A stretch of DNA of 43,771 bases from Thermoplasmata archaeon (GTDB taxonomy: Archaea; Thermoplasmatota; Thermoplasmata; Lutacidiplasmatales; UBA184): contig JAJYEA010000010.1 of NCBI GenBank assembly GCA_021790425.1, forward strand, positions 1 to 43,771. The letters are read 5' to 3'. Within the stretch, counting starts at the first letter, position 1. Every line of letters begins with the position of its first letter. The position numbers and the translations under genes were made by a program. The notes under the pieces were generated by a model. The model did not search any database. It was not told where the DNA came from and worked only from the letters and a program-made list of their open reading frames with translations. Positions 30,648-37,508 of this stretch are shown piece after piece.

Positions 30648-31331
30648 CTAGGTCTGCGAGTGCTGGTGGTTGTGCAGGGCGCGTGCGAGGAGCGCGGGGT
30701 CGGCGGCGTACTCTACGAGCAGGGCGAACGCGTCGTCCTGGGGCATCCCCTCGACCTGCAGGAGGTTGTTGAGCACGATCTTCGGGACACCCGACACCCC
30801 GTAGACCTCGGAGACCGTCGGGAACTCGTTGGCCTCGATCACGTCCGCGGTGACGAGCGGGTTCAGGCGGGCAAGGGAGTGGGCGAGTTGGGCCGCCCGG
30901 GGGCAGTACGGGCACGTTGGCGTGACGAAGACCTGGATGTGCACGGGGCGGGAGATGCGGGTGGCCCGGTCCTTCACGGCGTCGGGGACCTCGGGCGGCG
31001 CCCCGTCGACCAGGAGCAGGTCGTTGACGAAGGACTTCGTCTCCATTCCCATCGGGAGGCCATACCACCGCACTCGGTGGCCGTCACCCGTGGGGATGAG
31101 AAAGGCCGGGACCTTGTCCACGCCCATCGCCACCGCCTGCTCTCGGTCACGCACGAGATCGTAGCGTCGGACCTTGACGGTCGGCGCCATCTTCTCGAGC
31201 TCGTCCAGGAACTCCTTGCCCTGAGGACACAGATCGCAGTTGTCGTCCATGGAGAAACTCACGATCTCCACGGGGGACTTGATTCGGCCCAGCTCTTCCC
31301 GGAACGGCGAAAGATCGACAGAACTCATCAT
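30648..31331 (-). CDS. Protein disulfide oxidoreductase, two thioredoxin folds
   Basis: A 227-residue protein (from the ATG at 31331) with two thioredoxin-like halves, as in archaeal/hyperthermophile PDO (glutaredoxin-like). The N-terminal half has the active site CDLC in MDDNCDLCPQG and a cis-Pro in VDKVPAFLIP; the C-terminal half has CPYC in VTPTCPYCPRAAQL and VSGVPKIVLNN. These enzymes form and rearrange disulfides in the cytoplasm with thioredoxin reductase. The C-terminal tail is His-rich (NHQHSQT). The ATGs at 31331 and 31328 are equally possible; a minus-strand ggttaaagc near 31362-31370 is the likely promoter. Confidence 0.87.
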   Translation of the reverse strand: MMSSVDLSPFREELGRIKSPVEIVSFSMDDNCDLCPQGKEFLDELEKMAPTVKVRRYDLVRDREQAVAMGVDKVPAFLIPTGDGHRVRWYGLPMGMETKSFVNDLLLVDGAPPEVPDAVKDRATRISRPVHIQVFVTPTCPYCPRAAQLAHSLARLNPLVTADVIEANEFPTVSEVYGVSGVPKIVLNNLLQVEGMPQDDAFALLVEYAADPALLARALHNHQHSQT

Positions 31332-31526
31332 GCGCAGATCACCGGACGACCGACCCACGCAGGGGCTTTAACCGTGGTGGTTGCGCACGCCATGCCCCCG
31401 CTCCTGCGTCCGAGGGGGCCGGCCGACCGACCCGGCCATGGGCGTGGCGGCGCCCTACGTCCCGGGAAGGGATTAACCAGCATTCCCGGTGCAAACATTC
31501 AATAGCGCCCTCCGCATTCCCGGAAC

Positions 31527-32148: not shown

Positions 32149-33372
32149 TTACCAGGGCATGAGCGCCACCACGCCACAGAGCACGATGGAGGACAGGCTC
32201 GCCCAGTAGGCGACCCTCCACGGGAGGGAGGAGGCCTGGTCCCCCATCACCTTGCGGTCCGAGGCGAGCACCCCGACCAGGATGCCCGGTCCGATGAGCA
32301 GGAAGACGAGGAGCACCATGAACGTCAGCACGATGGTGAGCGGATGGGGATAGACGAAGGGGACCACCACCGCGGGGATGCTCTCGAGCGCGTAGACCCA
32401 GAAGGTGCGTGACTTCGCGAGCCCCAGCGCCTCCACGAACCCCCAGGCACTCCCGAGGGAGACGACCACCAGGGCGAGGAAGGCGGAGCTCACGAGCCCG
32501 AGGGCGAAGGCCTCCGTGAGGAGCGCGCCCCCGACCGTCCCGAGCGCGGCCGCGACCCCGCTCGTGGTGAAGAGGTCGGCGTGGGCCGGCATCCCCGCGC
32601 CGAGCATCACGAACCCCACCATCAGGAACTCGCTGACGAGGGCTCCGATCAGCGTCTCCCGTCGGACCCCGGTCACGGTCGAGCCGGGCTTGAGCGCGGT
32701 GGCCGAGGACTGGAAGAAGAGCATGAAGGGCATGACCACGGCGCCCGCGTTCGCCGCAACGAGGAAGAGGAAGGGAGGGGCCGCCGAGAAGTACACCGGG
32801 TTGTAGGGGAGGAATCCGCGCATGACCATGGCCCACCCGACCGAGAGGACGAAGACCGCGGAGATCGCGAGGAGGATGCGCTCGGCCCAGACGTACTTCC
32901 CCCGGGCGACGAGTCCGATGTGGAAGAGGAACGCCACCGGCAGGGAGAGGACGAGGGGTACCCCCAGGAGGCCGAGCCCCAGGGCGATCGCCGCGTACTC
33001 CGCGATGTAGGTGGCCACGTCGGAGATCGCCATCGGGACCGCGATCACGGCCCCCACGTTCCGGGACTGGGTGAGGCGGGCGAGCTCGCCCAGCCCCTTC
33101 CCCGTGACCGCGCCGATCCGGCCCGTCGCCTCCTGCACGAAGAAGAGCGGAATCGTGAGGAGCACGATCACCCCGATCAGGTTGTACTGGTAGGCGACCC
33201 CGGACTCGACCCCGGTCAGGATGCTGGCCGCGTCGACGTCCGCGATCATCACGAGCCACGCCGGGCCCCAGGCCCTCGCCCACCGGGGGAGCATCCGACG
33301 CCACGACGACATGCTCGAATACTCGACCCCCTCCGAGTGGGCTGGCCGGGCCTGTGCGGGTGTGTGTTCCAT
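32149..33372 (-). CDS. NRAMP-family metal transporter, variant metal-site motifs
   Basis: A 407-residue transporter with about eleven hydrophobic segments. The TM1 metal-site loop reads ADVDAAS (44-50) instead of the canonical DPGN, and TM6 reads VMPFM (213-217), keeping the Met of MPH but losing the His. Such variants belong to NRAMP-related clades found in bacteria and archaea, and their metal may differ from the classic Mn/Fe; I cannot say which. A soluble N-terminus of about 25 residues precedes TM1. An 8-bp inverted repeat (33420-33442) sits just upstream of its TATA-like element, suggesting regulation by a metal-dependent repressor. The gene stands alone on the minus strand. Confidence 0.8.
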   Translation of the reverse strand: MEHTPAQARPAHSEGVEYSSMSSWRRMLPRWARAWGPAWLVMIADVDAASILTGVESGVAYQYNLIGVIVLLTIPLFFVQEATGRIGAVTGKGLGELARLTQSRNVGAVIAVPMAISDVATYIAEYAAIALGLGLLGVPLVLSLPVAFLFHIGLVARGKYVWAERILLAISAVFVLSVGWAMVMRGFLPYNPVYFSAAPPFLFLVAANAGAVVMPFMLFFQSSATALKPGSTVTGVRRETLIGALVSEFLMVGFVMLGAGMPAHADLFTTSGVAAALGTVGGALLTEAFALGLVSSAFLALVVVSLGSAWGFVEALGLAKSRTFWVYALESIPAVVVPFVYPHPLTIVLTFMVLLVFLLIGPGILVGVLASDRKVMGDQASSLPWRVAYWASLSSIVLCGVVALMPW

Positions 33373-33403: not shown

Positions 33404-33442
33404 AATACTTAATCATTCTGTGTGTGATTTCGACTCACACAC
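33404..33442 (-). promoter_or_regulatory. NRAMP-like gene promoter with inverted-repeat operator candidate
   Basis: GTGTGTGA (33420-33427) and TCACACAC (33435-33442) form a perfect 8-bp inverted repeat with a 7-base spacer. Next to it on the minus strand lies aatgattaagtatt (33404-33417), a TATA-like element about 36 bases before the start codon at 33372. The repeat is upstream of the TATA element, so it could host an activator or a DtxR/MntR-type repressor. The assignment to a metal regulator is inferred from the gene it precedes. The remaining interval to 33629 holds no further gene. Confidence 0.5.
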
Positions 33443-33629
33443 GGTCACAGCGTGAATTCGCGCAAGGAGAATCCGGGTCGGCCCGGCTGCAGGAGCGACT
33501 CCAAGCACCGGTCATGGGTTAGCGAGACGTAGGGAACGACTTCGATCATCGCATCGAAAACGGCACCGTACCTCTGGGAAACGCCGACGGTACGCAAAGT
33601 TCTTCCATACCCCCGTCGTACGCTCGATC

Positions 33630-36197
33630 ATGATGCGGGGAGAGAGAAGTCCCGCGCTGCTGGTCGTGTCGTCCGCCATTCTGTTCGCCCTGATATGGCA
33701 GGGAATACCCGGCCATGCCCCACACGCTACGAAAGTGGACGTGGCCAACGGCCTGAGTGTAGGAGACTTTTCCAAGACCAAGCCCGTGGGGTCCCCTCTC
33801 GGGAGCGACCGGGTGCTGGGATCGACCGAACTCGCCGCATCGTCTCCCTACGTGAAGAACACTCTTGTTCTCTCGAACGGCACCCTAGCGCCCGGCAATT
33901 TCGCGGCCACGTATGGCGTGAATCCTGTGGCTGCCGCCTACGACAGTGGTAAGGGGGACATCTTTGTTGCCGACCAGTACTCGGGTAGCGTGAGCGTCAT
34001 CTCGGATGCGACTGAGACGGTGGTTGCCGGAGTCCCTGTGGGGGGTCAACCCATGGGAGTGGCCTATGACAGTGGAAGGGGGGAAATCTTTGTCACCGAC
34101 GCCACATCGAAAGAGGTGAGCGTGATATCGGATACGAACGACTCGGTGGTCGCCACCGTCACGGTGGGGTCAGCCTCGTGGGGCGTCGCTTACGACGGCG
34201 GGAAGGGGGAGATCTTCGTCGCAGACTCCGGATCCGGATCTCCCGGCCCAGGCACCGTGAGCGTGATTTCGGACACCAATGATACGGTGGTCGCCACCGT
34301 GATCGTGGGGAGCCAGCCTGTCGGGGTTGCCTACGACAGTGGAAAGGGCGAGATTTTCGTCACGAATAGCGGCGGCCAGTCGGTCAGCGTGATTTCGGAC
34401 GCGAGCAACACGGTCCGCGCCACGATCAGTAGCACGGGATACAGCCCCTTCTGGCCGGCCTATGACAGTGGGAGAGGGGAGGTGTTCGTCTCGGCCGGAG
34501 ACGCCGTGAGGGTGATTTCAGATGCGAACAACACGATAGTCGCAACTATCCCTGTGGGGTCCTGGCCCTATGGTACGGCGTATGACAACGGAAAAGGGGA
34601 GATCTTCGTCGCAAACTGGAACTCGGCCAATGTGAGCGTGATCTCGGATTCTAGCAATACGGTGGTCGCCACGATCAGTGCCGGCGACACGCCCTACGGT
34701 GTCGCCTACGACGGTGGGAAGGGCGAGGTCTTTGTGACAAACTCCGGTCTCTACGCTGTGAGTGTCCTGTCCGACACGACCAACAAGGTGGTATCTGTCG
34801 TCTATCTGGAGACGACGCCGGAAGGACTGGCCTACGATAGCGGCAAGGGGGAGATCTTTGTCGCCAGGTCCGTTGGTTGTGTCTCGGGCACCTGCGGTCT
34901 AGGGAATGTGAGCGTGATATCGGACGCGACCAACACGGTGGTCGCCACCGTCCAGGTCGGAGGTTCTCCCGTGGGGGTGGCCTACGATGGCGGCAAGGGA
35001 GAGGTCTTCGTGACAAACTCGGCCTCGAACAGCGTGAGCGTGATATCGGACTCGACCAACACGGTGGTCGCCGCCGTCCAGGTCGGGGGTTCTCCCGAGG
35101 GTGCGGCCTACGATAGTGCCACGGGCGAGGTCTTCGTCTCGAACTGGGGCTCCGGCAACGTGAGCGTGATCTCGGACGCGAGCAACAAGGTGGTCGCCTC
35201 CGTGCAAGTAGGGGGCTCACCCGATGGCATGGCCTACGACAGCGGTCGGGGAGAGATCTTCGTCACGAATGCCGTCTCGAACGGCGTGAGCGTCATCTCG
35301 GATGCGAACAACACGGTAATCGCCACCATCGATACTGGAGGCGCCAGCGTGATGGGGTATCCCACCGGAGCTGCGTATGACGGGCCGAAGAATGAGGTCT
35401 TGGCGACCGGGAGCTGCGGTGTGTGCGTGATCTCAGACAAGAGCAATGCCGTGCTCGCGATTGTTTCCGGTGCGCCCGACCCTGGTACGGGAATCGCCTA
35501 CGATAGCGTCACCGGAGAGGCCCTTGTTTCGGACTACGGTTCGAACTACGTGGACGCGATTTCGGATGCGAACAACACCGTGGTCAGCCACATCTCGGTG
35601 GGGCAGAGCCCCGTGCAGTTGACCTACGACGGCGGGAAAGGCGCGATTTTCGTCAGCAACTTCCAGCAGGGAACGGTGTCCATCATCGCCTTCCGTACGC
35701 TCCCGCCTACCTATGTCGTGTCCTTCACGGAGACGGGGTTGCCCTCAGGGACCTCGTGGTCTGTCACGTTGAACGGAACCAAGAGCACCTCCACGAACGC
35801 AACCCTGGCCTTCACCGAACCGAATGGGACGTACGCTTACTCCGTCCAGAGCGTGGTCGGATACTCCGCCAAGCCTTCGTCGGGGTCGATCACGGTGAGC
35901 GGTAGTTCCACCAGGACATCCATCATCTTTGCGAGCTCTGCCTCCCAGAATTGCCAGCCCAGCCGTCCCACTGGGTTCCTCGGGCTCCCCGGCTATGATG
36001 GGTACTTCCTCGTCGGTGCGATCATGGCGCTGGTGGCCCTAGACGTCGCCGTGTTGTGGGCGGTCCATCGCAGGAGTAGCGCGGGCTCCGGTCCTTCGAA
36101 GAAAGATGAGGAGACGGTTGAAAACGCGGACAAGACCGGGGCAGCCGAGTCTCCCGAGAGTGAGAACTCCCGGCCTAAGCCAGAGACATCGAAGTAG
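33630..36197 (+). CDS. YVTN-type beta-propeller surface protein
   Basis: An 855-residue exported surface protein. A signal peptide (about 1-30, hydrophobic LLVVSSAILFALIWQG) is followed by a Ser/Thr-rich linker and 14 repeats of about 42 residues with the core AYDSGKGEIFVTN..VSVISD..NTVVATV.VG (residues about 99-785), which would make two seven-bladed propellers. Then comes a domain beginning VSFTETGLPSGTSWSVTLNG, found in Thermoplasmata surface proteins, a hydrophobic anchor (FLVGAIMALVALDVAVLW) and a charged cytoplasmic tail with many Lys and Glu. Its codon use is less GC-rich than its neighbours. Adhesion or S-layer function is inferred. ATG 33630 or 33633. Confidence 0.88.
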   Translation: MMRGERSPALLVVSSAILFALIWQGIPGHAPHATKVDVANGLSVGDFSKTKPVGSPLGSDRVLGSTELAASSPYVKNTLVLSNGTLAPGNFAATYGVNPVAAAYDSGKGDIFVADQYSGSVSVISDATETVVAGVPVGGQPMGVAYDSGRGEIFVTDATSKEVSVISDTNDSVVATVTVGSASWGVAYDGGKGEIFVADSGSGSPGPGTVSVISDTNDTVVATVIVGSQPVGVAYDSGKGEIFVTNSGGQSVSVISDASNTVRATISSTGYSPFWPAYDSGRGEVFVSAGDAVRVISDANNTIVATIPVGSWPYGTAYDNGKGEIFVANWNSANVSVISDSSNTVVATISAGDTPYGVAYDGGKGEVFVTNSGLYAVSVLSDTTNKVVSVVYLETTPEGLAYDSGKGEIFVARSVGCVSGTCGLGNVSVISDATNTVVATVQVGGSPVGVAYDGGKGEVFVTNSASNSVSVISDSTNTVVAAVQVGGSPEGAAYDSATGEVFVSNWGSGNVSVISDASNKVVASVQVGGSPDGMAYDSGRGEIFVTNAVSNGVSVISDANNTVIATIDTGGASVMGYPTGAAYDGPKNEVLATGSCGVCVISDKSNAVLAIVSGAPDPGTGIAYDSVTGEALVSDYGSNYVDAISDANNTVVSHISVGQSPVQLTYDGGKGAIFVSNFQQGTVSIIAFRTLPPTYVVSFTETGLPSGTSWSVTLNGTKSTSTNATLAFTEPNGTYAYSVQSVVGYSAKPSSGSITVSGSSTRTSIIFASSASQNCQPSRPTGFLGLPGYDGYFLVGAIMALVALDVAVLWAVHRRSSAGSGPSKKDEETVENADKTGAAESPESENSRPKPETSK
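33924..35691 (+). repeat. Fourteen tandem about-126-base repeats within the propeller gene
   Basis: The repeats encode the blades of the surface protein. They are recognisable from gcctacgacagtgg.aaggg.gagatctt and agcgtgat.tcggac in each unit. The units between about 34900 and 35240 are close to one another in sequence, more so than the N- and C-terminal units, suggesting recent duplication or homogenisation by recombination. Copy number is likely to vary between strains. Confidence 0.8.
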
Positions 36198-36330: not shown

Positions 36331-37215
36331 ATGCGCAAGCTTATGGTGTTCGAGCCCCTCCCCGGTTCACGGTGTGACCATGGTGTGGTCGGGCGGAGCA
36401 GGGTCCCGATGAGGGCAGGGCCGGCCTCCCCGGTCTCGTGGGTGCATCTCCTGCAGGCCTTGGTGGCCCGGGAGTTGGTGGAGGAGCAGGGAGTCCCGTC
36501 GCGTCGGGTGGCGGCCCTTCTCGGCCTGGCCCCCTCCGCGGTCTCTCAGTACCTCTCCGGCAAGCGCCTCGCGGGTCCCTTCATCCAGCACTCGACGGAC
36601 GCGCGTTCGCAGAAGGTCGCCCGCCGCGTCTCCCAGACGCTCCTCCACGCGCCGAACGATCTCTCGGTCCGCACGCGAATCCTTCTGGAAGGAGCGGTCG
36701 AGCTCTCGGGGGCTGTACCCACCGCCCCGGCGGTGGAGGTGGCGATGGAGGGGGGAGGGGCGGGCGAAGCGCAGCGACAGATGGCCAAGTGGCTCCGGGC
36801 GCGGGTCCTCGCCGAACAGGCGGCGGTCACCGCCTGCATGCGCCTGGCCCAGAAGGCCCGGGACGAGATGACCCGGGCCGTCTTCCGCCAGATCGCCGCC
36901 GACAGCCTTCGCCATGCCGAGATCGTCGCCTCCTTGGTCACGTACCTCGACCGGGGCGTGGTCTCGACCTCGGCCTCCGGGGTCACCCGGCACGAGGTGG
37001 AGCTGATGATCGAGGCGGAGCGGAGGGCCGAGGAGCAGGCGGGAAAGAACCTCGCGAAATCCCTCGGGGGGATGATGTCCATCCTCGCCGCCAGCATGGA
37101 GGCGGACGAGCGCAAGCACGCGGAGCTCCTCCAGGGGATGCTCGCCATGGGCTTCGCGGAGGGACCGGCCGACCCGGGCGCTCCCCGAAGGGGGAACCGT
37201 TCGCGTCGGCCGTGA
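36331..37215 (+). CDS. HTH regulator fused to ferritin-like domain
   Basis: A 294-residue protein (or 268 from the ATG at 36409). Residues about 38-80 form a helix-turn-helix (LVARELVEEQGVPSRRVAALLGLAPSAVSQYLSGKR) of the archaeal COG2522 type. Residues about 145-275 look like a four-helix ferritin-like bundle: VLAEQAAVTACMRLAQKARDEM, then IAADSLRHAEIVASL, ELMIEAERRAEEQA, and MEADERKHAELLQGM. The repeated ADSLRHAE / ADERKHAE pair would supply the two DxxxH-type ligand sets of a di-iron site. This would make a transcription factor that senses iron, oxygen or peroxide. Start choice is uncertain, and the 3' tail is basic. Confidence 0.72.
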   Translation: MRKLMVFEPLPGSRCDHGVVGRSRVPMRAGPASPVSWVHLLQALVARELVEEQGVPSRRVAALLGLAPSAVSQYLSGKRLAGPFIQHSTDARSQKVARRVSQTLLHAPNDLSVRTRILLEGAVELSGAVPTAPAVEVAMEGGGAGEAQRQMAKWLRARVLAEQAAVTACMRLAQKARDEMTRAVFRQIAADSLRHAEIVASLVTYLDRGVVSTSASGVTRHEVELMIEAERRAEEQAGKNLAKSLGGMMSILAASMEADERKHAELLQGMLAMGFAEGPADPGAPRRGNRSRRP

Positions 37216-37265: not shown

Positions 37266-37508
37266 ATGGAGCGATGGTGGTACACCCACGAGGTCTGGCC
37301 GAACGCGGTCTACCTGAGGGAGCTCCTCCACCGGGATCTCGGCTTCACGGACTTCGATACGCAGGCCGTGGAAGCCATCCTGAAGCTGGCCGGGGAGGGC
37401 AAGCTCCAGATTGGGGAATACGAGGGGCGCCCTCTCCTGCGCGACTCCCAGGGGTCCTATCCCCCCGGTGCGGGGGCCTGGACCCGGCACCTCGCGGCGC
37501 CCAAGTGA
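37266..37508 (+). CDS. Small conserved-looking protein of unknown function, 80 aa
   Basis: I do not recognise this family. The protein MERWWYTHEVWPNAVYLRELLHRD begins with several Trp residues, followed by FTDFDTQAVEAILKLAGEGKLQIGEYEGRPLL, which looks like a folded alpha/beta unit, and a Gly/Pro-rich tail. It starts 50 bases after the HTH-ferritin gene on the same strand, so co-transcription is possible, and its stop converges with ileS 40 bases away. Confidence 0.5.
   Translation: MERWWYTHEVWPNAVYLRELLHRDLGFTDFDTQAVEAILKLAGEGKLQIGEYEGRPLLRDSQGSYPPGAGAWTRHLAAPK

Follow-up and report, generated by a model that had tools for sequence, protein, structure and literature searches.

The window, a stretch of 43,771 nucleotides from a Thermoplasmata archaeon, contains an ORF (36331-37215, + strand) whose product joins an HTH to a ferritin-like domain. 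This raises the question of what such a protein would sense and which genes it would control. An earlier note on this DNA had proposed an iron or oxygen sensor.

A conserved HTH protein with a ferritin-like domain

The ORF is open throughout and occurs in one copy in its own genome, and its conservation marks it as a real gene. Of the 103 genomes in its family, 75 have a homologue, in most cases with 45-61% identity; those that carry a name are all Thermoplasmata MAGs. Full-length relatives also occur in two further families of the class, with one close relative (G179) and more distant ones (G124 and G156). The conservation and neighbourhood counts given below refer to 55 distinct homologues and their loci, all from Thermoplasmata archaea, the two most distant of which share 25-26% identity in the ferritin-like domain. 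Translation likely starts at the ATG at 36409, yielding a product of 268 aa (residues are numbered from this methionine), because the homologues begin near this position and because a putative operator at 36366-36378 would fall inside the longer ORF; the start at 36331 was rejected on both grounds. Downstream of the regulator lies an 80-codon ORF (37266-37508, + strand) without family matches. In one related genome, a broken remnant of the regulator (G017:C35:39300-39550) sits beside a ZIP gene whose promoter keeps the operator, and the complete regulator is located on another contig.

Table 1. Positions in the window of the regulator, its domains, the predicted target gene and the putative promoter elements.
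Feature	Position	Strand	Description
Regulator (likely start)	36409..37215	+	HTH at residues ~8-62, helical linker 65-101, C-terminal ferritin-like domain 118-250
HTH DNA-binding region	36469..36591	+	Residues 21-61; from HTH_3, hhalign and conservation
Ferritin-like domain	36760..37161	+	E136, D165-S166-x-R-H169, E204, D233-E234-x-K-H237
NRAMP-family divalent metal importer, predicted target	32149..33372	-	PF01566, E 2e-30; divergent NRAMP in 6 related loci
NHL/YNCE-type beta-propeller gene	33630..36197	+	Between NRAMP and regulator here; not part of the system
Putative operator, regulator's own promoter	36346..36378	+	GTGT-N16-TTCACGGTGTGAC, palindrome 36366-36378
Putative operator, NRAMP promoter	33424..33456	+	GTGA-N16-GTCACAGCGTGAA, palindrome 33444-33456; upstream half-site within GTGTGTGA repeat
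Putative NRAMP TATA box ATTAAGTATT	33404..33413	-	Next to the operator on its downstream side, in NRAMP orientation; read from the sequence

Five residues of the HTH (A35, Q47, Y48, G51 and R53) are invariant in the 55 homologues. The match to HTH_3 is sub-threshold (E 2e-4), and hhalign matched the domain over 84 columns (95%, E 4e-8) to the corresponding domain of an HTH-ThiN protein that belongs to the same class. The second result supports the COG2522-type label given earlier, as ThiR-type regulators are classed as COG2522. Two related HTH proteins of the class (L095:3289-3648 and L094:3763-4674) carry a CxxH...CxxC motif, and the latter also ThiN, so that the same HTH is paired with several sensor modules.

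The helices themselves were recovered by AlphaFold2: the domain modelled alone consists of four, at domain positions 3-35, 39-67, 80-96 and 107-133 (pLDDT 92.6). The two ADxxRHAE-like motifs noticed earlier are real and invariant in the 55 sequences, with the correction that the first reads D-S-L-R-H, i.e., SxxH rather than ExxH. They form part of a pattern, E-X28-D-[S/E]-x-[R/K]-H, that is present twice (E136-X28-D165-S-x-R-H169 and E204-X28-D233-E234-x-K-H237) and that is presumably similar to that of DExRH-class di-iron proteins. Invariant residues comprise E136, D152, T155, R160, D165, S166, R168, H169, E204, D233, E234, K236 and H237. The conserved ligands on which the di-iron proposal had been made to depend thus exist, as E136, H169, E204, E234 and H237 are kept even at 25% identity. 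Five of the six canonical ligands (four carboxylates and two His in two E...ExxH motifs) are present: the second motif is complete (E204, E234, H237), whereas the first has E136, S166 and H169 in all 55 sequences. S166 stands at the position of the first bridging Glu, with which an HMM alignment with EncFtn also pairs it. E208, retained in 53/55, could act as a substitute carboxylate.

Profile comparisons also point to a ferritin-like domain. PF02915 (Rubrerythrin) is matched by 53/55 homologues at E<=0.05 and Phenol_Hydrox, another di-iron family, weakly by 52/55; the domain in the window scores 21.9 bits against PF02915, under the Pfam gathering score of 22.8 bits. In a PDB profile search, the top matches of the domain were the designed di-iron bundle 4EH2, an archaeal mini-bacterioferritin and P. 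furiosus EncFtn (E 7e-4 to 0.02). A closed bundle was not obtained in the AlphaFold2 monomer, either at full length or for the domain alone, and hairpin 1 was predicted well. Superposition of the model on whole ferritin-like chains gave rmsd values of 12-20 A, and the best rows of the structure search were unrelated helical hairpins; as far as this model goes, the structural fold search backs the hairpin only. The model does contain antiparallel helical hairpins with ligands 30 and 33 residues apart. The same spacing is found in EncFtn (E32/E62/H65), for which metal-dependent assembly has been published, and in which E62A, at the position matching S166, disturbs the metal site much like E32A (PMC5012862). 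The protein may form a dimer, either swapped or of the EncFtn type. The di-iron centre proposed earlier therefore stands in part: metal-type ligands are conserved in all homologues, but the site is one ligand short and the monomer model lacks a closed four-helix bundle. We do not claim membership of Rubrerythrin or EncFtn, as the first ExxH is missing and the score lies under the Pfam cut-off.

Metal importers and a shared promoter element

The regulator adjoins a ZIP or NRAMP importer in 48/55 distinct loci: a divergent ZIP in 23, a co-directional ZIP just upstream in 19 and a divergent NRAMP in 6. The two distant homologues from another family likewise have a divergent ZIP. As the type and orientation of the importer swap between loci, this linkage argues for function rather than inherited gene order. 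The NRAMP-like gene that had been placed about 3 kb away in the window is indeed an NRAMP gene, with its start 2.96 kb from the regulator. This gap exists because the beta-propeller gene sits between them; in the related NRAMP loci examined, that gene is absent and NRAMP and regulator are adjacent. Linkage in related loci, together with the operator at both promoters, supports a functional tie between the two genes.

The ZIPs paired with the regulator are of two kinds, HNxxEG or QNxTEG, and their Pfam ZIP matches fall under the curated cut-off. Many of them carry QNxTEG where HNxPEG is the usual metal motif, possibly a sign of a substrate other than zinc. A further arrangement occurs in three loci (L017, L019 and L022), where a gene for a haem-oxygenase-like iron enzyme (PF14518) lies upstream of the regulator in the same direction and no importer is adjacent; a search of 19-kb stretches around two of them (L098 and L099) found no operator at the regulator or ahead of the gene pair. 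The window also encodes a protein disulfide oxidoreductase (30648-31358, - strand; TIGR02187 above cut-off).

A 13-bp palindrome, TTCAC-N3-GTGAA, was noticed in most of the intergenic regions when these were read. It is present with <=1 mismatch in 39 of 46 importer promoters, whereas 200 dinucleotide shuffles gave 0.21 on average and never more than 2, a contrast that overstates independence because the loci are related by descent. Read in the orientation of the importer, the usual layout is the palindrome, N16/17, a TCAC half-site, ~11-12 nt and then an AT-rich TATA-like element; in relatives, the AT-rich element lies at a distance matching that of the putative NRAMP TATA box. In co-directional loci the site is found upstream of ZIP and not between ZIP and the regulator, which means that the operator belongs to the importer promoter. 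In divergent loci the palindrome borders directly on an AT-rich element in the promoter of the regulator itself. With the two most distant homologues, tandem TAAC-N3-GTTA boxes take the place of the TTCAC palindrome.

The window holds exactly two sites at <=1 mismatch, one in the NRAMP promoter and one in the regulator promoter. As 5 of 100 shuffled versions of the window also reached two sites, their placement and not their number carries the argument. The DNA targets suggested in the earlier note, the GTGTGTGA repeat and the gene's own promoter, proved right in silico, since GTGTGTGA (33420-33427) contains an operator half-site. The only ZIP gene of the same genome, on another contig (G000:C138), is preceded by TTAACAGCGTGAA-N16-TCAC, immediately upstream of an element resembling a TATA box. 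A genome-wide regulon was not drawn from the palindrome alone, as most other inspected sites with <=1 mismatch in this genome were coding or unconvincing. In a related genome, a perfect bipartite operator (0 mismatches; L172, G020:C51, site at 2993) stands before an ABC importer (genes 106-2931, - strand) with a permease and an SBP_bac_6 binding protein, a family that includes ferric-iron and phosphonate binders; this importer is a possible further target.

We also compared ZIP genes that do not adjoin the regulator, using the compound site with <=3 of 14 mismatches. The operator was present in 13/17 unlinked ZIP promoters of regulator-bearing genomes vs 1/16 of those without the regulator (Fisher 6e-5, indicative only, since the genomes are related and the figure overstates their independence). 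Three of the four site-less ZIPs in regulator-bearing genomes are second ZIP paralogues, and the one operator-bearing genome without a detected regulator is 69% complete. In silico, the operator at metal-import promoters is thus dependent on the presence of the regulator, as expected of a metal-responsive regulator.

Proposed regulation and its alternatives

We consider it probable that these proteins form a new family of one-component regulators that control the import of divalent metals and have a predicted ferritin-like metal sensor. The HTH would bind TTCAC-N3-GTGAA together with the TCAC half-site that lies 16-17 nt closer to TATA, at the promoters of ZIP and NRAMP importers as predicted targets and, in many loci including that of the window, at its own promoter. 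The C-terminal rubrerythrin/EncFtn-like domain would be the sensor, with E136, H169, E204, E234 and H237 as metal ligands, perhaps joined by E208 and with D165 and D233 as second-shell residues. A filled metal site probably makes the dimer more stable and strengthens its DNA binding. Once on the operator, the protein would keep TFB/TBP off the importer promoter, so that import stops when metal is plentiful and the regulator represses its own gene. Fe2+ and Mn2+ are the likeliest metals to be sensed, because these are substrates that the ZIP and NRAMP families share; Zn2+ is conceivable for HN-type ZIPs. We give about even weight, for and against, to a metal site completed at the dimer interface, as in EncFtn, in which Fe2+ or Mn2+ would drive dimerisation and operator binding and the Ser-for-Glu replacement might let the site stay a reversible sensor and not act as a ferroxidase.

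The sign of regulation could be the reverse. A metal-free form might act on the same DNA target as an activator upstream of BRE/TATA, recruiting TFB/TBP when metal is scarce and repressing only its own gene. The operator lies at a fixed distance upstream of TATA (the AT-rich element follows the TCAC half-site by 11-12 nt), which is where archaeal activators such as Ptr2 act, and in divergent loci the palindrome abuts the AT-rich element of the regulator's promoter. However, the proximal half-site is so close that it could overlap BRE, an arrangement just as compatible with blocking, and most regulators of metal import are metal-activated repressors. We regard activation as possible but doubtful; if these proteins are metal-responsive regulators, a metal-activated repressor with autorepression is somewhat favoured over an apo-activator. 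Alternatively, the ferritin-like domain could be a degenerate module for structure or dimerisation, or a sensor of another ligand, with metal import controlled by other means. The bridging Glu missing from all homologues (S166), the sub-threshold Pfam scores and the lack of a closed bundle in the model fit this explanation and count against a metal sensor. L017, L019 and L022, which have the haem-oxygenase-like gene upstream in place of an importer, weigh against the main reading as a regulator of metal import. For the degenerate module, a metal site predicts the invariance of the five ligands at 25% identity, and the predicted target genes are metal importers; both make it unlikely.

Two further explanations are less probable still. 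The oxygen or redox sensing put forward earlier would rest on di-iron O2 chemistry; ferritin-like folds can activate O2, and three loci carry the haem-oxygenase-like iron enzyme upstream of the regulator. Against this, the targets found are metal importers and not oxidative-defence genes, and the ligands canonical for O2 activation are not all present. With no target genes in its favour, we found nothing that points to oxygen sensing and consider it very unlikely. Finally, a DtxR-family repressor might bind the palindrome, with the HTH-ferritin protein a mere neighbour. DtxR C-terminal domains occur in 36/41 family genomes, two of them in the genome of the window, and in G002 one DtxR gene lies ~4 kb from the NRAMP/regulator pair. 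However, six genomes (G008, G018, G038, G051, G063 and G070) have DtxR without the regulator and no operator at ZIP, which speaks against binding by DtxR, and where the regulator has diverged, in distant homologues, the operator takes a different form too. This leaves DtxR highly improbable.

Comparison with known regulators and ferritin-like proteins

Prokaryotic regulators of Fe/Mn import mostly have DtxR, Fur-family or Fe-S folds. The regulator lies outside Fur and DtxR, as had been anticipated: the protein has no PF01475 and no DtxR N- or C-terminal domain. In its own genome Fur (PF01475) was not detected, and separate DtxR genes are found elsewhere. Metal-responsive one-component regulators are already known; what is new, as far as the literature searched shows, is the ferritin-like sensor domain, as our search, which covered papers outside subscription, found no published regulator with such a domain. 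If the prediction is true, a large group of mostly uncultured archaea has turned a storage/oxidase fold to reversible metal sensing, for which an operator and a regulon are predicted here. The prediction can be tested directly with one protein and one 33-bp DNA.

Similarity to known systems is confined to parts. Encapsulated ferritin (EncFtn/EncB, PDB 5da5, 5n5e, 7s5c) has ligands 30 and 33 residues apart, and over 59 residues EncB superposes on hairpin 1 with an rmsd of 1.2 A (Z 9.4, a middling value for such a hairpin). Unlike EncFtn, the regulator has two hairpins per chain, Ser for the first ExxH Glu and a fused DNA-binding domain, and it is not an encapsulin cargo. Rubrerythrin and sulerythrin (PF02915) share the four-helix, two-motif organisation (sulerythrin on hairpin 1, 1.5 A over 61 residues, Z 9.0), whereas the regulator stays under the Pfam cut-off, has SxxH for the first ExxH and is predicted to act in transcription. 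The haemerythrin domain of FBXL5 is a four-helix di-iron fold that serves as a cellular iron sensor; however, FBXL5 is a eukaryotic ubiquitin ligase subunit with a haemerythrin fold and no transcription factor. Like DtxR/MntR and Fur/Mur, the regulator is predicted to control Fe/Mn importer genes via a palindromic operator, but their sensor domains are unrelated to its own, with no family match. With the archaeal HTH-ThiN (ThiR-type) regulators, including the L094 protein, it shares a related N-terminal HTH; their sensor is ThiN, whereas here the HTH is joined to a ferritin-like sensor, with metal importers as the predicted targets.
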